Shown piece by piece: positions 2,681-53,639 of a DNA stretch of 56,274 nucleotides. The stretch spans positions 1 to 56,274 of the forward strand of contig NZ_JAANOZ010000016.1 in assembly GCF_011320115.1 (NCBI RefSeq). Reading direction: 5' to 3'. The translations under genes and the position numbers were made by a program. The notes beneath the pieces are model-generated. The model was not told where the DNA came from. It was given only the letters and a program-made list of their open reading frames with translations, and did not search any database. Origin of the DNA: Croceibacterium segetis (GTDB taxonomy: Bacteria; Pseudomonadota; Alphaproteobacteria; Sphingomonadales; Sphingomonadaceae). Each line of letters begins with the position of its first letter. Within the stretch, counting starts at the first letter, position 1.

Positions 2681-2696
2681 CTAACGATTAATTAAC
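2681..2696. promoter_or_regulatory. CtrA-like box upstream of the PilZ-XRE gene
   Basis: The sequence CTAA-N7-TTAAC matches the alphaproteobacterial CtrA consensus TTAA-N7-TTAAC with one mismatch. It ends 43 bases before the GTG start of the regulator at 2739. The match is short and could arise by chance in this AT-rich patch. Confidence 0.35.
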
Positions 2697-2738
2697 GGTA
2701 TTCCGGCCACTCCTCCCTTTGCAGACTTGGAGGCGTGA

Positions 2739-3458
2739 GTGGCAATTGCGGCAGAGCTAGTAGGCACGCCGAATCTCAAGGGCCGCCGGGGCTCGATCCG
2801 GCGCGAGATGACTCTGCGTGCTCGCGGCGCTCCCGGGGCTGGCAACGCCACTGACGTGCTCATCCGCAATCTGTCGACGACAGGTATGCTACTTGAAGCT
2901 GCGGTTGGCTTGGTGGTCGGCCAAAAGCTCGTCATAGACTTACCTCAAATCGGCCACGCCGCGGCGGGGATCGTTTGGGCTGACGACAACCTGTTTGGCT
3001 GTTCATTCGCCCGGCCGCTTTCCGAGGCCGCCGTGAGCGCCGCTCTATTGCGGAGCGACCCAAAGTCGCGCCCGGGCGAGGCGCTGCCAGGACCTTCGAC
3101 GGTCAATCGCGCAACAGCGCAGACCCTCGGCGAGAGGATAAGGGCCATCAGGCTCGCCAGAGGGCTCTCGCTGGTCGAGTTCGCCCATAAGATGAACGTG
3201 AGTCGGCCCACCGTATGGGCTTGGGAGGCGAACAAGAATGCACCCCGCCCAAGAAAACGTCAGCAGTTGCTGAAAGTCCTCGAGGTCACGGAAAGCGAAC
3301 TGGAGGGCCCCGCAAATCTTGCCGCTATTGCCGGTCAGAGCGAAGAAGCGCCCGAGGACGAAAGCAGACTGAAGAGCCTCGTCCACCAAGCGAAGGTCAC
3401 GATCGCCGACGCCGCGGGCACCACTCCCGAAAAGGTAACGTTGATCATCGAAATTTAG
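2739..3458 (+). CDS. PilZ-XRE fusion regulator, candidate c-di-GMP-responsive DNA-binding protein
   Basis: The 239-residue protein has two domains. Residues about 12-105 form a PilZ domain with both canonical c-di-GMP contacts: RxxxR at 17-21 (RGSIR) and NxSxxG at 44-49 (NLSTTG), 22 residues apart as usual. Residues about 128-188 form an XRE/Cro helix-turn-helix: LGERIRAIRLARGLSLVEFA, then NVSRPTVWAWE as the recognition region. The C-terminal 50 residues are acidic and then end VTLIIEI, with no recognised fold. The start is a GTG at 2739 preceded by GGAG at six bases. PilZ domains bind c-di-GMP and XRE domains bind DNA; the predicted role as a nucleotide-controlled transcription factor is inference from the fusion. 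The gene sits just upstream of the exosortase/exopolysaccharide locus, which is a plausible target. A CtrA-like box precedes it. Confidence 0.85.
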   Translation: MAIAAELVGTPNLKGRRGSIRREMTLRARGAPGAGNATDVLIRNLSTTGMLLEAAVGLVVGQKLVIDLPQIGHAAAGIVWADDNLFGCSFARPLSEAAVSAALLRSDPKSRPGEALPGPSTVNRATAQTLGERIRAIRLARGLSLVEFAHKMNVSRPTVWAWEANKNAPRPRKRQQLLKVLEVTESELEGPANLAAIAGQSEEAPEDESRLKSLVHQAKVTIADAAGTTPEKVTLIIEI

Positions 3459-33574: not shown

Positions 33575-33737
33575 TTATCAACATAGCTATCGACAGGGGA
33601 TGAGTCGTCGAGTCGAGTCGCCTGCATTATGAGTGCCCAACCGATGGGATCGCTCGCGGGTCGCGGCGCGCAAGTCTGAGCCGCAATGAAGAGTTGTGAG
33701 ACGTAGAGTTGAATTTCTTTATTTCGGAGTGACTGAT

Positions 33738-34385
33738 ATGCTCAAGAAGACAATGATCACGGCGGCTGCGCTTTGCGCGTTTGTAGCTGTTCCTGCGTCT
33801 GCGCAGGTTTCACTGGGGGTTGTGAATGGCTCGGATCCCTATGCCGGACCGACACCTACCTATAACTTCGACGCGCCTGGCGCTCCGATCACAGGCGGAG
33901 CGGTGAGGACCACCTCTCCTTCCGGTGTTGCGGCTCAACCGTACGGCAGCACCGGCGGCTATTGGACGGTCGGGCCGAGCGATGGATCGCCTGGCGTGCT
34001 GAATTTGTCGAGCTTCGCAGGAATTGCCTCGATATCCTTCATCTGGGGTTCGGTCGATACCTATAACACCCTCGAAGTTCTGGACCGGCTCAACAACGTG
34101 ATTGCGACCTTCACGGGGAGCGATGCCGCTTTGCCTGCCGACGGAGATCAGCACGATCCGGCCACGAATCCGCTCGCCACGCTTACGTTCAGCGGAACCA
34201 CCCAAGGCAATATTGGCGGGCTAAGGCTCTGGTCCTCGCAGAATGCATTCGAAACCGATAACTTCGCGGTTACCGCGGTGCCCGAGCCCGCCATCTGGGC
34301 TTTGCTCCTGCTCGGCTTCGGCTTCATCGGAGCTTCTCTCCGCGGCCAAAAGCGTCAGAAGCGCATGCGTCTGAAGCTCGCGTAA
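33738..34385 (+). CDS. PEP-CTERM sorted exported protein
   Basis: A 215-residue protein with a signal peptide (MLKKTMITAAALCAFVAVPASA) and a C-terminal PEP-CTERM signal: VPEPAIWALLLLGFGFIGASLRG followed by a basic tail. The middle region is Gly, Ser and Thr rich with beta-strand character and shows no catalytic motif; the phrase NLSSFAGIASISFIWGSVDTYN recalls other PEP-CTERM proteins of unknown function. It is a likely substrate of the exosortase at 4626. ATG 33738 has GGAG eight bases upstream. A strong terminator follows at 34441. Confidence 0.9.
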   Translation: MLKKTMITAAALCAFVAVPASAQVSLGVVNGSDPYAGPTPTYNFDAPGAPITGGAVRTTSPSGVAAQPYGSTGGYWTVGPSDGSPGVLNLSSFAGIASISFIWGSVDTYNTLEVLDRLNNVIATFTGSDAALPADGDQHDPATNPLATLTFSGTTQGNIGGLRLWSSQNAFETDNFAVTAVPEPAIWALLLLGFGFIGASLRGQKRQKRMRLKLA

Positions 34386-42789: not shown

Positions 42790-43092
42790 TCAGCCGACCG
42801 CAGCGGCGGACTGGATGCCCGAGACGATCGAGGCGGCGCCGAACAGCACGAAGCAGCCGACGATCACCGTGGCCCCGAAGCGCCAGTTCATACGGCCGGT
42901 GAGCATCATGAAGCCGACTGCGGCGACCGCCATTACGGCGACCGCGGTGGCGACGTTGCCGAGCAGCGTGCCCTGCATCCAGGCGAGCGCGGCGACGATC
43001 GGGCCCGAGCCGCGCGGGTCGACGCCTTGCGCCAGCGCGGCGGTCGGGCTGAACAGCGTGAGAAGCGCGGGAATGAGGGCAAGCTTACGCAT
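42790..43092 (-). CDS. virB2: VirB2/TrbC-like pilin
   Basis: A 100-residue pilin precursor with a signal peptide ending AALAQ and two hydrophobic helices (LGNVATAVAVMAVAAVGFMML and FGATVIVGCFVLFGAASIVSG) joined by the polar turn TGRMNWR. It would form the pilus or channel subunit. The ATG at 43092 is five bases after the virB1 stop. Confidence 0.91.
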   Translation of the reverse strand: MRKLALIPALLTLFSPTAALAQGVDPRGSGPIVAALAWMQGTLLGNVATAVAVMAVAAVGFMMLTGRMNWRFGATVIVGCFVLFGAASIVSGIQSAAAVG

Positions 43093-43097
43093 GGCAA

Positions 43098-43721
43098 TTA
43101 TCTCCGGGTGTGGTCGGAAAGGCGGCCGAGCACGGCCGCGACGTAGGTCTGGGTTTCGCGGATGCGCGGGACGCCGCCGGCCTGCTCGACCCGGCCGGGC
43201 CCCGCATTGTAGGCGGCCAGCGCCTTTTCGAGGTCGCCGCCGAAGCGGTCGAGCTGCTGGCGCAGATAGCGCGCGCCGCCTTCGAGGTTGGCCATCGGAT
43301 CGTCGGGATTGACGCCGAGGCTTTGCGCCGTGCCCGGCATCAGTTGAGCGAGGCCCCGCGCGCCGACCGGCGAGACGGCGCCGGCGCGCCAGCGGCTTTC
43401 CTGCCAAACGACCGCTTCGATCAGCGCCGGGCTGAGGCCATAGCGGGCCGCAAGCTCCTGTACCTTTGCGGCATAGGGCTGCGGAACCCTCCCAGCGCTC
43501 GCGGAAGGATCGGCCAGCGAGCCTGCGGGCACCGCTGGGCCTTGCGCGACCTGAAGTGTCAACCGCTGACCGGGAGCCCCGTTGCCTGCGATCCACTGTG
43601 CGCCGCTGGCCCCGACTTCGAGCACGTCGGCACGCGCGGGAGTGGTGACCGAAGCCAATATCGAACATCCCACCACCAAAGCAGCTCGCGCTATACTTGG
43701 CGAGATTCGCAAAACCATCAT
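43098..43721 (-). CDS. virB1: VirB1-like lytic transglycosylase
   Basis: A 207-residue exported muramidase with a signal peptide ending TTPARA. The SLT domain has catalytic Glu in IEAVVWQESRW, then GAVSPVGARGLAQLMPGTA, NPDDPMANLEGGARYLRQQL and LAAYNAGPGRV. It opens peptidoglycan for the secretion apparatus. Start at the MM pair 43721/43718; a longer frame to 43889 lacks a signal. It is the first gene of the virB operon. Confidence 0.9.
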   Translation of the reverse strand: MMVLRISPSIARAALVVGCSILASVTTPARADVLEVGASGAQWIAGNGAPGQRLTLQVAQGPAVPAGSLADPSASAGRVPQPYAAKVQELAARYGLSPALIEAVVWQESRWRAGAVSPVGARGLAQLMPGTAQSLGVNPDDPMANLEGGARYLRQQLDRFGGDLEKALAAYNAGPGRVEQAGGVPRIRETQTYVAAVLGRLSDHTRR

Positions 43722-44449
43722 CGAGCGTCTAAACCTCCCCTCCTCCTCGCACTCCGCAACGCTGCATCCGCTGCGCCGTGAGCCGGCAAAGCCGCAATCT
43801 GAGGGCCCGCGCCTTTCCCACGTCGTGCGATCAACCGCGTCGCCCGTGAGACCAGCCGTGTTGCCTGCAGAGAGTGAGGATAAGCACATCCTTGTACCTT
43901 GGTGGGCTATGGTTAAAATGAAGTTATCGGACGCTAACCGAATCTTAGAGCCCGTGGACGCGTGGGCAGAGAATGAGGAAATTGCCTGTCGGTCTTGCGG
44001 TAGCCATTCCCAGGGGCAGGTTCTCGGAAGCCGTCTCGCTCCCGATTAATGGCCGCTAACTTTCCTTTTCTCTTGAGACATCGAAGGGAGGCGCGCGACC
44101 CAGGCTCGCGTGGGTGCAAATTCGAGTAGGGAATTTTCGCGCAAACCGAGCATCCGAGCGCGCGATGCGGCGCTAAGCTACGCCGCCAACTGCAACGGCT
44201 CGCGATTCCGAGCCGGAGGACTTGGTCAGATGCAAGCCGTCGCGCCCACCGACAAAGGAGGCGGAGCTGGCCAGGGAAAGATCCGATCCTGTCGAATCCT
44301 TTGATGCCGCGGCGCATGACGGCCCTGGCCGATCCGCTTGACCGGAGTGATCGCAGCCGCGAGGCTCCGATAGTTTCTCGGGAGCAGCCGGCTCCAAGCG
44401 AGGCGGGCGCCAAACGGAAGCCGAATTGCCCGAAGGTTCTTACGCAGAT
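43722..44449. other. Leader region of the virB operon with a CtrA-like box
   Basis: 728 bases without a credible gene, between the regulator stop and virB1. On the minus strand 43927-43913 reads ATAA-N7-TTAACC, one mismatch from the CtrA consensus TTAA-N7-TTAACC, about 190 bases before the virB1 start. No -35/-10 pair is convincing. The rest shows nothing recognisable. Confidence 0.45.
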
Positions 44450-45910
44450 CTAATCCCGCGCATTCGCCCCGTAGATTCCTTCAAATCCCAGCTGACGGGC
44501 CTTTCGATAAAGCGTCGAGCGGCCGATCTTTAATCTTCGCGCGACCTCCGCCATGCGCCCGCCGTAACGCTCGATCGCGAAGCGGATCACATCGGCTTCT
44601 ATGTCGTCGAGGCTACGCATGTGGCCCTCTTCGGTGCAAATCTTCATCTCGGGTGTAGCCGATTGGCTCGGGTCCAGGCGCACGGCTTTGCCCGGCATGG
44701 CTGAGCCGGCTAATTCGACGAAGTCGGCGCGCGTCAAAACATGATCTGTGGCCATCGCGACCGCCCGTAGGAGGACCGCCAGGAGTTGACGGCTGTTACC
44801 GGGCCAATCAAGCCCCCGAAGCAGCGCCAGCGCATCGTCGTCGATCGCCAGCATGCGAAGATCTCGAGGGTCTCGAAATGTGCTGACGAACGCTCGCGCT
44901 ATCAGTGACACGTCCTCCCGGCGCTTGCGAAGCGGAGGCAGGTAGATGCGCGCCGACTCGAACTTTCTGTAAAGCTCGGTACTGAATGCCTTGCTTTCGA
45001 CGAGTTCGGCGATCGGATCATCGCCCAACGCGATAATGCGTACGTCGAAACAGTAGGCTGCCGCGCTGCCCAAGCGCAGCGCGCGTCGGTCTGAAAGGGC
45101 TTCCGCCAGCCGGTCCTGGATGGGTATTGGCAGGTCGTCCACGTCATTCAGTATCAGCGTGGCGCCGTGACTCTGCTCGAGCAGTCCTGGACGCGCGTCA
45201 AAGGCACCGACAAAGGCCCCCCGCTCATAGCCGAACAGCGCGGCTTCAATCTGGCTCGCTGTGGTGTGGCTGAAATCGCCGTGCTTGAGTGGCATTCGTG
45301 ACCGTGGCGAGGCAGCGTGAATGGCGCGGGCGAGGAGGTCTTTGCCGGTGCCAGGTTCTCCCTCGATCAGCACGTGGACATTAGCCCGTGCGATTTTCTC
45401 TGTTTGTGCCCAGGCGGCGCGAAACGACGGATCGGCCTCGATCATCGAATCAAATCCGATCCCCAATTCAAGCTGATCGGCCCATGACTCTCGTTCGCGG
45501 AGGTGATCGTACGCGCGGCTCGTAGCTTTGCGCAGGAGTTGGAGCAGTTGTTCCGGAGTGACAGGTTTCGCGACGCAATCGCCCGCTCCAGCGCGCAGTG
45601 CATCAAAAAACCACCGCGATGAAGCGCTCGAGGCGATCGCGACGATGCCAAGGTTGCGTTCGCGACGTCTTAGGTCCGCAATAGCCTCCCCGATCGGCCC
45701 CTGAACGGCGTCTTGATCGAGAATTATCGCCGACGTCTGCAACTCGGACGACGTGTCCAGCATGGAATTGGCTTCTGCCAGATCCGTGCAGAACATCGTT
45801 CGCCAACCCAGATGGCACGCCTGATCGGCGAACACCGTCACTTCCGTGCAGGGGTGCCCAACCAACAGGACCGTGCGCTGGCGGGCATTGAAGGGATTTG
45901 CGGCTGTCAT
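44450..45910 (-). CDS. NtrC-family regulator with degenerate receiver and AAA+ motifs
   Basis: A 486-residue protein: receiver-like domain (about 12-130), AAA+ domain (155-390), Fis-type helix-turn-helix (445-480: GRMAEVARRLKIGRSTLYRKARQLG). Departures from the family are clear. The receiver has VLLVGHP where an acidic pair (VDDD) is expected, though Asp65 and Lys115 remain. Walker A is intact (GEPGTGKD, 184-191). Walker B reads LILND in place of LFLDE. The sigma-54 contact loop is GAFVGA (231-236) in place of GAFTGA. Family knowledge says loss of the GAFTGA Thr abolishes sigma-54 activation, and some NtrC relatives act with sigma-70 instead. So this is probably a DNA-binding regulator not driven by phosphorylation or sigma-54. 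It lies upstream of the virB operon, same strand; targets unknown. Confidence 0.85.
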   Translation of the reverse strand: MTAANPFNARQRTVLLVGHPCTEVTVFADQACHLGWRTMFCTDLAEANSMLDTSSELQTSAIILDQDAVQGPIGEAIADLRRRERNLGIVAIASSASSRWFFDALRAGAGDCVAKPVTPEQLLQLLRKATSRAYDHLRERESWADQLELGIGFDSMIEADPSFRAAWAQTEKIARANVHVLIEGEPGTGKDLLARAIHAASPRSRMPLKHGDFSHTTASQIEAALFGYERGAFVGAFDARPGLLEQSHGATLILNDVDDLPIPIQDRLAEALSDRRALRLGSAAAYCFDVRIIALGDDPIAELVESKAFSTELYRKFESARIYLPPLRKRREDVSLIARAFVSTFRDPRDLRMLAIDDDALALLRGLDWPGNSRQLLAVLLRAVAMATDHVLTRADFVELAGSAMPGKAVRLDPSQSATPEMKICTEEGHMRSLDDIEADVIRFAIERYGGRMAEVARRLKIGRSTLYRKARQLGFEGIYGANARD

Positions 45911-46826: not shown

Positions 46827-46980
46827 CGCGTGCCTTGTCCTGAGCCTTGTCTGGTCCGCGGTTCTAGCTCGACACGCATCCCAAAATGGGAAACTCGAGA
46901 AGAACTCTCGCCTTTCGGTGCACCGCGGCTGGTGTTAAGTTTTGACCCTGAAGTTTAACGCTGTCCACGCGCGAGGGCCC

Positions 46981-47583
46981 ATGATTCGTCGAGTAAATCG
47001 CCTGACCCTTTTCGCCCTCGCCACTTTGTCGGGCCTGTCGTGGGCGTCCTCGGCTGAAGCGGGAAAGCCGGTCGCTGCGCCGCCGCCAGGCTGCTCTACC
47101 GTCACGTTCAGCGTTACGACCCTTGACTGCCTTGGGTTTTATGAGGGCAACCTGGTTGCCGAAGATGGACCGAAGCTCACTCAGGCTCTCGGCCTGACGA
47201 GCGGCTTGGATGGCGATGCATCGTCGCTGCTCGAAAAGATTGAATGGGGGTCGGGTCAAGACGGCAATCCCATCGATTTCCTCACCTCGCTATCCGGGAA
47301 GACCGTGATCGGCATCCATTTCGGCGGAGGCCGTGACGGATATAATGGGACGGGGTTCTGGTTGCTCGACGCGCCAGCGGACACCGACAAGATCACATGG
47401 TACTCGAATACCCAAAGTGGCATTTCGAATGCGGGACTCTATTTGACGCAGGTCCCGCCGGCGGTCCCCGAACCGTCGACTTGGGCACTGCTGCTCGTCG
47501 GTTTTGCCGCCCTTGGCGGTGCGATGCGACGATTGCGACTTGGCAATAACGCCAAAGTGGCCCTCGCCTACAAAGACACTTAG
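46981..47583 (+). CDS. PEP-CTERM sorted exported protein
   Basis: A 200-residue protein with a signal peptide (LTLFALATLSGLSWASSAEA) and a textbook PEP-CTERM end: VPEPSTWALLLVGFAALGGAMRRLR. The mature part has two Cys (GCSTVTFSVTTLDCLGFYEG) and the pattern GNxxxEDGPKLTQALGL, seen in PEP-CTERM proteins of unknown function. It is the second predicted exosortase substrate, lying 13 kb from the first. ATG 46981 gives the best signal peptide. Confidence 0.9.
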   Translation: MIRRVNRLTLFALATLSGLSWASSAEAGKPVAAPPPGCSTVTFSVTTLDCLGFYEGNLVAEDGPKLTQALGLTSGLDGDASSLLEKIEWGSGQDGNPIDFLTSLSGKTVIGIHFGGGRDGYNGTGFWLLDAPADTDKITWYSNTQSGISNAGLYLTQVPPAVPEPSTWALLLVGFAALGGAMRRLRLGNNAKVALAYKDT

Positions 47584-50592: not shown

Positions 50593-51087
50593 ATGAAATC
50601 GGGGATAGTCCTTAATGCGGGCCTGGTTGTGTGGGCGGCTGTCGCTGGCACGTCGTCGTCGCCTGCGCACGCGGCGTCCAACAAGGCGCGCCTCACCGGC
50701 CTGAGCGACGTCGCCTTCGGGCTGATCGCGAGCAACGTCGATCAGTCGGCAAGCCAGAGCGTTTGCGCTTACAGCTCGAGCAATACCAATGGATATTCGG
50801 TCACCGCGATCGGGAGCGGGGGAGGGGGAGCGTTCGAGCTGCTCGCGGGTGCCACGCCGCTGCCGTACGATGTCTTGTGGTCCGATGCCGGCAACCAGAC
50901 CAGCGGCGTCGCCCTGGCCCCGGGCACGACGAGGTCGGGCTTCACCTCCACTGCCAGCCAGCAAACCTGCAATAGCGGTCCGAGCTCCTCGGCAAGCCTT
51001 ACTGTGATTATCCGATCGGCGACCCTGATGTCGGCAAGGGCGGGGACCTATTCGGGTATGCTGCAAATCACAATCGCGCCTGAATGA
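50593..51087 (+). CDS. Spore coat U (SCPU) domain pilin-like protein
   Basis: A 164-residue secreted protein, signal peptide ending SPAHA. It repeats the SCPU plan: ARLTGLSDVAFGLI, first Cys in SVCAYSSSNTNGYSVTAIGSG, second in QQTCNSGPSSSASL and a last strand AGTYSGMLQITIAPE. It is shorter than the first pilin because it lacks the N-terminal GTLGATSTG segment. It overlaps the usher start by four bases (ATGA). Confidence 0.87.
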   Translation: MKSGIVLNAGLVVWAAVAGTSSSPAHAASNKARLTGLSDVAFGLIASNVDQSASQSVCAYSSSNTNGYSVTAIGSGGGGAFELLAGATPLPYDVLWSDAGNQTSGVALAPGTTRSGFTSTASQQTCNSGPSSSASLTVIIRSATLMSARAGTYSGMLQITIAPE

Positions 51088-53639
51088 GCAACTTACGGTC
51101 ATTCACCGGATGCCGCGGCGCGCTCGCGCTGGGCTGCGCGGCCGTTGCCACGAGCTTCCTGCCTGCGCAGGCGCGCGCCGGCAACGCTCCGGTGATCTCG
51201 GTCGGCGAGCCCGACGGCTTTGCCGAGCTGACCGGGGATCAGACGCTGCTGGTTGATGTCTATTTCGGAGGAGTGCGTCTGGGAGAGGCGCTTGTTGTCG
51301 CGACGCCTGATAACGTGCGGGTCAAAAACCCCGTGGCCTTGTTTGATTTGCTGCCAGCTGTAACCGATCAGGCGCGCGTCCAGGCGGCACTTGCCGCGCC
51401 CGATCTTCGGGCAAATTCCGCCCTGGCCTGCTCGACAGGCTCTGACCGCGACACGTGCGGTCGTCTCTCGCCCGAGATTGTCGGCGTCATCCTCGATCGG
51501 CAGCGGCTGCGCCTGGACGTGTTCCTCAATCCTCGACTGCTGGTCATCCACGACAATGTCGAGGAACGCTACCTGCCTACGCCGACGAGCGGCCTGTCGA
51601 TGACCAACGGCATTGGTGCAGTGCTTTCGGGGCAATCAGGCACAGGCCGGAATTTCTACAATTTGCAGGACCGACTCGTACTCGCGAATGGAACGCGGCG
51701 GCTGCGTGCAGACATGTCTTACGCCACAAACCACGGCCTCGAAGCCGAGCGGCTCGCTTTTGAATGGGACCGGGCAGAGGTGCGCTACTCGGCCGGTGCA
51801 TTGTGGGCTCCGGGAACCGACCTGACGGGGCGGCGCAAGCTGCTTGGTCTCGGCATCGAATCACAAGTCGACACGCGTCTGGACAAAGACCAGATTCTCG
51901 GCAGTCCGGTTGTAGTCTACCTCGATCGCAGAGCGCGGGTGGATGTGGTCCGCGATGGCCGCGTGCTCAATTCGGCGATCTACGAAGCCGGGAATCAGCA
52001 GGTGAATTCCGCCAATCTCCCCGAAGGTTCCTACCAAATTGTCCTGCGGATTGACGAACCTGGCGGGCGAACACGCGAGGAGCGGCGATTTTTCACGAAA
52101 AGCCGGCGAATCCCGTCACCCGGGCGGACGGACTTCTTCGCCTTCGGCGGCGTCTTCGCCCGCGGCGGCGATCCGGGCGCCCTCCTGCCGTCACGCCATC
52201 CTTACTTTGAAGCCGGCATCGGACGCCGGATGAATCAGAGCTGGGCAGTCGAGGGTAAGATCGAGGCGAGCGACAAAACCGCGTCGATGGAGCTGGGAGC
52301 GACCCTGCTGACGCAGTTCGCGCAAGTGCGCGCCGCCGCAATCGCCGACTTTCACGGGCGCTTCGGCGGCATCCTACAGCTCGCCTCGAATGGATTCTCA
52401 CGGCTCAACTTCAGTTTCGATTTGCGGCGCCTCGACGGTGGTTCAATGACCGCAGGCCCAACGGCTGGCCCAGTCGGGGGTTCGCTGTCGAATTCCTTCG
52501 GCGCAGCTGGCTTGGCCCGGCTGGGCAACAGTTATTTGCAGATTGGCGGCCTCGTATCCTACAGCATGGCGAACGTCCGCTTTCTTGGCGTGTTCTCTTA
52601 CCGCGAGGATCACGAGCAAGTGGCGAGTTACAGTGTTGGCCCCTCACTGGAGTGGGATGTCTTGCGTAAGGGCCCGTTCACGCTAACTTTGCGCGGCGAT
52701 ATGACCGCGACCGAGCGCGGCGCCTCCGAGTTCGCGGGTATTTCGCTGCGCCTAGTTGGAGGACACGCGTCTATGACCGCGCTAGGTGCAAGCAGGACGT
52801 CCAGTATCACCGCCGACGATCTTGGCGATGGCCTTGTGACATCCCTCGCCGGGACGTGGACGACGGGCGCCGCAGGCGGCGATTTGGCTCTCGGTGCCGG
52901 CTTTGAACATCAGCCGCGGCAAGACGATCTCGTGCTGTCGTCCGAATTTCGTCACCCGCTGGGCTCGCTGTCGGGCGATCTTGTGCGCAGCGACAACGGT
53001 CCCTCGAGCGTATCACAATACAGTGTCGGCATGCAGACAACTATCATCGCCGGCGGTGGAACGGTGCGGGTTGCCGGCAAGACCACCAGCGACAGCTTGG
53101 TCGTGGCCCACGTCGCGGGCGCACGCGATGGCGATCGCTTCGAAATGCTCGTCAACGAGCAAGTCGCCGGAACGATCGTGGGTGACCAGCCGCTCATGCT
53201 CCCCCTCGCGACTTATCGCGCCTACGACGTGCGCATCCGGCCGACCGGGAAGGATTTGCTCGCCTACGACAGCTCTCCGCGCCACATTGGCCTTTACCCA
53301 GGCGCGGTGAGCCGACTCGAATGGAAGGTTGCTCCCATCACGATCAAATTCGGCCGCCTAGTCGCCCCTGATGGCAAGCCGGTCGTTCGCGCCTCAATCA
53401 CCGGCAGGGGCGTCTGGAGTGAGACTGACGACAACGGCTTTTTCCAGGTCGAGGCACCCGATGATGCGGAGCTGACCGTGACGACGCATGACGGCCGCTC
53501 CTTTGCGGCGAAGCTACCATTGGGTGAACCGCAAGGCGGGGTCGTCCGGCTTGGATCGGTGCTATGCTGTGGCGCGGGTGAAATGTGGCTTGGCGCCCTC
53601 GACCCACGAGTCCTGCCTGTCGAGGGGACGGCGGAATGA
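51084..53639 (+). CDS. Fimbrial usher, CS1/TcfC-like
   Basis: An 851-residue outer-membrane usher with a signal peptide ending PAQARA. The N-terminal domain (LVDVYFGGVRLGEALVVATPDNVRV) is followed by the paired Cys LACSTGSDRDTCGRL, barrel strands with usher phrases (LPEGSYQIVLRIDEPGGRTREERRFF, DFFAFGGVFARG), and a C-terminal part with GKPVVRASITGRGVWSETDDNGFFQVE, a carboxypeptidase-like or CS1-type C-terminal domain. It exports and assembles the SCPU pilins. ATGA-coupled to the genes on both sides. Confidence 0.88.
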   Translation: MSNLRSFTGCRGALALGCAAVATSFLPAQARAGNAPVISVGEPDGFAELTGDQTLLVDVYFGGVRLGEALVVATPDNVRVKNPVALFDLLPAVTDQARVQAALAAPDLRANSALACSTGSDRDTCGRLSPEIVGVILDRQRLRLDVFLNPRLLVIHDNVEERYLPTPTSGLSMTNGIGAVLSGQSGTGRNFYNLQDRLVLANGTRRLRADMSYATNHGLEAERLAFEWDRAEVRYSAGALWAPGTDLTGRRKLLGLGIESQVDTRLDKDQILGSPVVVYLDRRARVDVVRDGRVLNSAIYEAGNQQVNSANLPEGSYQIVLRIDEPGGRTREERRFFTKSRRIPSPGRTDFFAFGGVFARGGDPGALLPSRHPYFEAGIGRRMNQSWAVEGKIEASDKTASMELGATLLTQFAQVRAAAIADFHGRFGGILQLASNGFSRLNFSFDLRRLDGGSMTAGPTAGPVGGSLSNSFGAAGLARLGNSYLQIGGLVSYSMANVRFLGVFSYREDHEQVASYSVGPSLEWDVLRKGPFTLTLRGDMTATERGASEFAGISLRLVGGHASMTALGASRTSSITADDLGDGLVTSLAGTWTTGAAGGDLALGAGFEHQPRQDDLVLSSEFRHPLGSLSGDLVRSDNGPSSVSQYSVGMQTTIIAGGGTVRVAGKTTSDSLVVAHVAGARDGDRFEMLVNEQVAGTIVGDQPLMLPLATYRAYDVRIRPTGKDLLAYDSSPRHIGLYPGAVSRLEWKVAPITIKFGRLVAPDGKPVVRASITGRGVWSETDDNGFFQVEAPDDAELTVTTHDGRSFAAKLPLGEPQGGVVRLGSVLCCGAGEMWLGALDPRVLPVEGTAE

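Follow-up and report, generated by a model that had tools for sequence, protein, structure and literature searches.

A PilZ-XRE fusion gene of Croceibacterium segetis and its sphingomonad relatives as candidate cyclic di-GMP-responsive transcription factors

The DNA analyzed here, a stretch of 56,274 nucleotides from Croceibacterium segetis (NZ_JAANOZ010000016.1), is one entire contig, referred to below as the window, and the gene of interest within it joins a PilZ domain to an XRE helix-turn-helix (HTH) domain. This gene (2739..3458, on the plus strand, as are the other window features given below in the form start..end unless marked minus) begins 2.7 kb from the contig end at a GTG start codon, with the ribosome-binding sequence GGAGG five bases 5' of it (2729..2733), and encodes a protein of 239 amino acids (aa), the open reading frame (ORF) being backed by Pfam matches and full-length homologues. 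The PilZ domain occupies residues 16-98 (2784..3032) and matches PF07238 at 26.7 bits against a cut-off of 22.5 (E 7.1e-6). The XRE DNA-binding domain occupies residues 130-188 (3126..3302), of which residues 134-188 match HTH_3 (PF01381) at 38.9 bits against a cut-off of 23 (E 9.1e-10). Both sets of residues that form the cyclic di-GMP (c-di-GMP) motifs are intact, namely, RxxxR (R17 and R21; 2787..2801) and NxSxxG (N44, S46, and G49; 2868..2885). A fusion of this kind, with RxxxR at residues 17-21 and NxSxxG at residues 44-49, had been proposed from the DNA alone (the sequence-only reading), and the two profile matches and the motif positions bear it out.

The remainder of the protein consists of a low-confidence linker (residues 106-129; 3054..3125), in which residues 109-125 have a predicted local distance difference test score below 50, and of a conserved C-terminal tail (residues 207-239; 3357..3455), in which a helix over residues 207-226 of the predicted model is joined by a short hydrophobic end. 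In the same model the PilZ region (residues 3-105) forms seven strands and one helix, and the XRE assignment is given by fold as well as by a profile score above cut-off. Foldseek searches with the model return 4xrn and BcsA chains at E 0.004-0.008 only, with nothing at E ≤0.001, and a sequence search of the PDB with the family profile gives 83 matches, the best 60 of which all begin at profile position 101 or later and leave the PilZ part uncovered. XRE repressors such as SinR, DdrO, and P22 c2 share the fold of the DNA-binding part, and the matches to them span the XRE part only; these repressors are not known to carry a PilZ domain. Homologues of 26-44% identity cover all four parts of the protein, from PilZ through the linker and XRE to the tail, which rules out a chance ORF or a join made in assembly.

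The distribution of these homologues defines a protein family. Among 298 genomes sampled from the window's GTDB family, a 27-member profile identifies at least 60 full-length genes in at least 54 genomes, where full length means profile coverage from position 38 at most to position 232 at least. The family, class, and phylum searches scored at most nine candidates per genome, and 54 of 298 may for that reason be low. The survey of the architecture that the sequence-only reading had suggested thus places full-length PilZ-XRE proteins in a single GTDB family: in the class sample (289 genomes) and the phylum sample (299 genomes), full-length matches among the candidates scored are confined to that family, which is a statement about these samples, and the remaining matches span a single domain only. 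Named genomes, scanned separately, yielded 80 loci; 31 of them (L041-L071) span both PilZ and XRE and come from entries titled Erythrobacteraceae, Novosphingobium, Sphingopyxis, or less precisely named sphingomonad or proteobacterial metagenome-assembled genomes. The other 49 match the XRE part only or mainly and were dropped from the neighbor counts. The host genome itself carries three PilZ-XRE genes, the window copy being 38% identical to the copy on contig C23 and 32% identical to that on C14.

The sequence-only reading had also named a ground on which its proposal should be given up, namely, that the architecture is widespread and already characterized. The first half holds, within one GTDB family, but the second finds no counterpart in the literature searched, since none of the papers listed by full-text searches, in a collection that covers few subscription journals, describes a PilZ-XRE fusion in its title or abstract opening, and none is named in the available passages of PMC12564702, PMC10333796, and PMC7288161.

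Conservation within the family extends to the ligand motifs and to the tail. [DN]xSxxG is retained in 26 of 27 rows of one alignment and in all 32 rows of a second, overlapping one, with S46 and G49 invariant in both. With a lenient pattern, RxxxR is found ahead of this second motif in 47 of 55 sequences; four of the eight misses are sequences trimmed by too late a chosen start, and three of 58 sequences were left out of the count because the search pattern missed their second motif. The tail of 33 residues is common to the family, and A223 is invariant in both alignments. The same tail also ends proteins with one of the two domains, namely, L012, which has XRE and no PilZ match, and L038-L040, which are of a PilZ-only kind (Pfam was run on L012 and L038), and it may be a pairing module. 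A further set of sister proteins (L004 and L005, both in the host genome, and L011, L033, and L034) carries the same type of PilZ domain with an apparent C-terminal membrane helix in place of XRE. In genome G069, about 8 kb separates one such PilZ-membrane-helix protein (C4:41926) from an exosortase match (C4:32964).

When the family genes are placed into genomic context, they are found close to genes for c-di-GMP turnover. Every fourth genome of the 54 was examined for GGDEF domains. These 14 genomes contain 16 family genes, at least 11 of which have a GGDEF domain no more than 2.5 kb away; the density of GGDEF domains predicts 0.31, and at least 9 of 13 remain when the window's genome is set aside. 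In 21 of the 31 named loci, the family gene is followed on its own strand, after 108-303 bp, by a gene whose product matches the profile of a GGDEF partner of about 300-360 aa; Pfam reports GGDEF in all four partners tested and PAS above cut-off in two. This pair stays together amid differing flanking genes in Erythrobacter-type and Novosphingobium-type genomes. Of the other two host copies, C23 lies downstream of a GGDEF-EAL gene, with 60 bp between them, and C14 has a GGDEF gene 1.1 kb away.

The signature of the partner is degenerate, with GG[DE]EF kept in none of the 21 proteins. An alignment read by eye places RxxD five residues ahead of the degenerate signature in 11 of the 21, a position that we take to be that of the c-di-GMP-binding I-site, and the partner could on this account be a c-di-GMP reader. 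It could therefore be asked whether the PilZ domain serves as a docking module only, so that the XRE regulator would be run by contact with a protein such as this degenerate GGDEF neighbor and would not itself sense c-di-GMP. The adjoining partner in so many loci is consistent with such an arrangement, and certain PilZ domains are described as scaffolds that do not bind c-di-GMP (passages of PMC10333796). However, a pure docking domain could lose its ligand motifs freely, whereas most members, the window copy included, retain them, and the window copy has no adjoining GGDEF partner at all. We consider docking alone unlikely. In many relatives, the PilZ-XRE protein may work together with the adjoining GGDEF protein of lost catalytic signature.

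Genes for surface adhesion recur as well. Of 60 copies, 6 have a Tad pilus secretin gene no farther than 15 kb away, where 0.82 would be expected (P about 2e-4); the host C14 copy is one of the six. Copies with an usher gene no more than 5 kb away occur in Sphingopyxis (L062 and L071), in a congener (L157, whose usher was the one tested with Pfam and is backed by it), and elsewhere (L164 and L169). On the conjugative plasmid Lpl of Novosphingobium sp. PP1Y (L210; NC_015579.1), a family gene that is automatically annotated only as a helix-turn-helix transcriptional regulator is followed about 2.8 kb on by a fimbrial chaperone gene. The Pfam model Usher (PF00577) matches in just 11 of the 54 genomes, with 2 of 15 rows (G001 and G039) within 5 kb of a family gene, and no enrichment figure is given for ushers because this model misses ushers that a profile derived from the loci finds.

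Taken over the 31 named loci, a GGDEF, GGDEF-EAL, usher, or Tad gene lies within 5 kb in 28; the exceptions are L042 and L063, which have none in reach, and L052, where a GGDEF gene lies 7.9 kb away. Among 15 hand-picked extra neighborhoods outside the 31, the same holds for 13, the remaining two being L165, with EpsI at 5.7 kb, and L172, with none of these kinds. The usher, Tad, and GGDEF calls in the named loci come from profiles built partly from the same loci, with Pfam checks on selected proteins. All of these neighbor figures overstate the certainty, because the loci share descent, so that kindred loci are not independent events, and because distances were already known when the limits (2.5, 5, and 15 kb) were chosen.

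A second feature shared by the family lies upstream of the genes. The window copy is preceded, 42 bases ahead of its start codon, by the CtrA-box-like site CTAACGATTAATTAAC (2681..2696), the sole match to YTAAN7TTAAC in the 56-kb window, where 0.05 would be expected; its core, CTAA-N7-TTAA, is one base away from the CtrA consensus TTAA-N7-TTAA. The upstream stretches of family genes, when read side by side, show a recurring gnTAAC-N6-TTAACc. Among 45 family genes, 22, that of the window included, have TAAC-N7-TAAC in the 160 bp ahead of the gene, whereas 2 of the 893 other genes called at the same loci do; for YTAA-N7-TTAAC the figures are 17 of 45 and 1 of 893. These counts used three patterns on the same sequences that had revealed the box and are descriptive rather than an independent test. 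Starts are uncertain in L042, L052, L062, and L065 and approximate in several others of the 45 genes, and the count omits L158, which is at the position of L043, and L171, where the box is present. An inverted-repeat operator was sought in front of 41 family genes, but the best dyads, with arms of 5 and 6 bases, recur in 3 of the 41, little over shuffled sequences, and this candidate was set aside. Elsewhere in the window, a second TAAC-N7-TAAC (43912-43926, minus) lies about 23 bases upstream of genes for an SLT transglycosylase and a TrbC/VirB2 pilin (42790-43889, minus).

The box could be read either as a CtrA site or as the family's own operator, through which the proteins would regulate their own genes. 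Autoregulation would suit a box so tightly tied to the family and so rare elsewhere, and one whose first half does not follow the CtrA consensus. It fits less well with the form of the box, since XRE dimers usually use inverted repeats and the box is a direct repeat. Nor is the box peculiar to the family: in eight further genomes, single CTAACN6TTAAC sites also stand ahead of a CcrM-type methylase (a label assigned here from its N6_N4_Mtase and RAMA domains), CheA, a DUF4402 protein, and a polysaccharide export gene. The half-sites have the same orientation and lie 11 bp apart, which is the spacing of the CtrA consensus TTAA-N7-TTAA (as given in a passage of PMC9437464). According to passages of PMC11264516, most CtrA-activated promoters of Caulobacter carry a single near-consensus site, located at -35, and a CtrA site of the form TTAA-N7-CTAA is described at hemE. 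We therefore regard the box as a candidate CtrA site and control by CtrA, which would turn the PilZ-XRE gene on, as likelier than autoregulation. Because the exact consensus stands upstream of only 1 of the 45 family genes (and 1 of the 893 others), autoregulation is doubtful rather than remote, and no more than tentative belief is placed in the family-wide reading with CtrA control given below.

YTAAN7TTAAC occurs 11 times in the host genome, as often as the reversed control, and two of the 11 stand upstream of PilZ-XRE genes; the third host copy (C14) has no YTAAN7TTAAC upstream. CTAACN6TTAAC is not enriched genome-wide in the eight further genomes, with 25 sites against 39 for the control. 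Four of these 25 precede PilZ-XRE genes (L189, L204, L205, and L206, the last by coordinates). Another five, from five of the eight genomes, stand just upstream of genes for 311-327-aa proteins that resemble one another on visual inspection (L186, L187, L201, L202, and L203); Pfam gives no match for L187, the one tested. The others, apart from the single sites named above, fall within predicted genes or ahead of other genes.

At the window copy, the gene that follows encodes a cell wall hydrolase (PF07486; 3481..4476, minus) and is convergent with the PilZ-XRE gene. Beyond it lies a cluster of exosortase, DUF3485, glycosyltransferase, and Wzz genes that includes the exosortase gene (PF09721; 4545..5579), whose start is 1.1 kb past the end of the PilZ-XRE gene, and DUF3485/EpsI (PF11984; 5428..6258). 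The sequence-only reading was right to place the fusion next to an exosortase/exopolysaccharide cluster, but its suggestion that the fusion controls this cluster gains no support from conservation. The sole congener found with the locus, G002, carries the same cluster (exosortase 68-69% and hydrolase 52% identical to those of the window) and has no adjoining PilZ-XRE gene. An exosortase search matched 5 of 25 relatives, the window's genome among them, and the surroundings of the exosortase in G002 and G152 hold no PilZ-XRE gene at either place.

It is thus quite conceivable, although we lean somewhat the other way, that the window copy is a relic or a specialized paralogue unlinked to the adjoining exopolysaccharide genes, in a neighborhood that arose by accident. 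Besides the bare locus of G002, for which no full-length family gene is among the matches listed, the position of the window copy near a contig end and on an orphan branch would agree with this. Against it stand the open frame, intact motifs, ribosome-binding sequence, and box of the gene, and in G123, which is of another genus, the copy (L165) sits between two PEP-CTERM genes, one of them a marginal match (21.0 bits against 20.7), with an EpsI gene 5.7 kb off and a transposase beyond. A role of the window copy in exopolysaccharide control is possible. The contig also carries genes for PEP-CTERM proteins (33696-34385 and 46942-47583), a sigma-54 activator (44450-45910), and a protein with TcfC and CooC_C domains, as in a CS1-type usher (51084-53639, plus); in positions 1-2738, Pfam gives no match in the six ORFs tested.

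When domains, motifs, and neighbors are placed together, the gene probably encodes a one-component transcription factor, in which the N-terminal PilZ domain is predicted to bind c-di-GMP through RxxxR and NxSxxG and thereby to alter DNA binding by the XRE domain. The effect of the ligand might pass through the flexible linker or through the arrangement of a dimer, perhaps paired by the tail. XRE binding at the promoters of surface-structure genes would then change, with each paralogue serving targets near its own gene, and the target of the window copy could be the exosortase/PEP-CTERM exopolysaccharide system. Some observations weigh against a ligand-responsive switch of this kind, beyond the lack of a GGDEF neighbor at the window copy, the exopolysaccharide locus of G002, the scarcity of the exact CtrA consensus, the absence of genome-wide enrichment, and the limits set after the distances. 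R17 and R21 both stand at the exact aligned columns in just 20 of 27 and 14 of 32 rows (the second alignment has gaps there in four rows, and in many others RxxxR is shifted one residue on), and L013, L049, L059, and L070 have no clear RxxxR. The predicted model does not fix the placement of PilZ and XRE relative to each other (predicted template modeling score 0.46). The window copy, furthermore, forms a long branch of its own, with at most 39% identity in the tree alignment and no supported placement.

Comparison with described regulators gives this assignment further context. A 2025 review states, in the passages available, that most known c-di-GMP-responsive regulators use canonical HTH domains for DNA, that MrkH is a PilZ domain joined to a novel DNA-binding domain, and that proteins with PilZ linked to an uncharacterized or ill-defined domain are promising places to look for new receptors (PMC12564702). 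MrkH of Klebsiella is likewise a PilZ regulator of transcription that answers to c-di-GMP, and its activation of type 3 fimbriae may be compared with the several PilZ-XRE genes that adjoin chaperone-usher loci. MrkH, however, binds DNA by its novel domain and not by a canonical HTH, whereas the window protein has an N-terminal PilZ, XRE, and the conserved tail. BldD of Streptomyces also unites an HTH and a c-di-GMP-sensing part in a single chain, but a tetramer of c-di-GMP is bound there by the protein's own C-terminal domain and not by PilZ (passages of PMC7288161); the window protein scores 12.2 bits with the NCBIfam BldD equivalog model, against a cut-off of 250, and is not BldD. A c-di-GMP-binding PilZ protein is known from a relative, mPilZ-1753 of Erythrobacter (Qipengyuania) flavus, and Qipengyuania loci were found among the family matches. 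Unlike the window protein, mPilZ-1753 has 123 aa and activates the enzyme TsdA through direct contact (passages of PMC10267684 and PMC12172448).

More tentatively, the whole family might be viewed as lineage-wide one-component c-di-GMP transcription factors under CtrA control, with duplicated copies each dedicated to a different surface structure (Tad pili, chaperone-usher fimbriae, and exosortase/PEP-CTERM exopolysaccharide), the tail as a pairing module that one-domain relatives also carry, and, in many relatives, a catalytically dead GGDEF protein as co-receptor. If this were true, PilZ-XRE proteins would be the sphingomonad counterpart of the role of FleQ or MrkH in gammaproteobacteria. 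An HTH fused straight to PilZ would be a simple switch, with up to three copies in a single genome and with neighbors that hint at its targets, and the family could show how sphingomonads convert c-di-GMP into gene expression.
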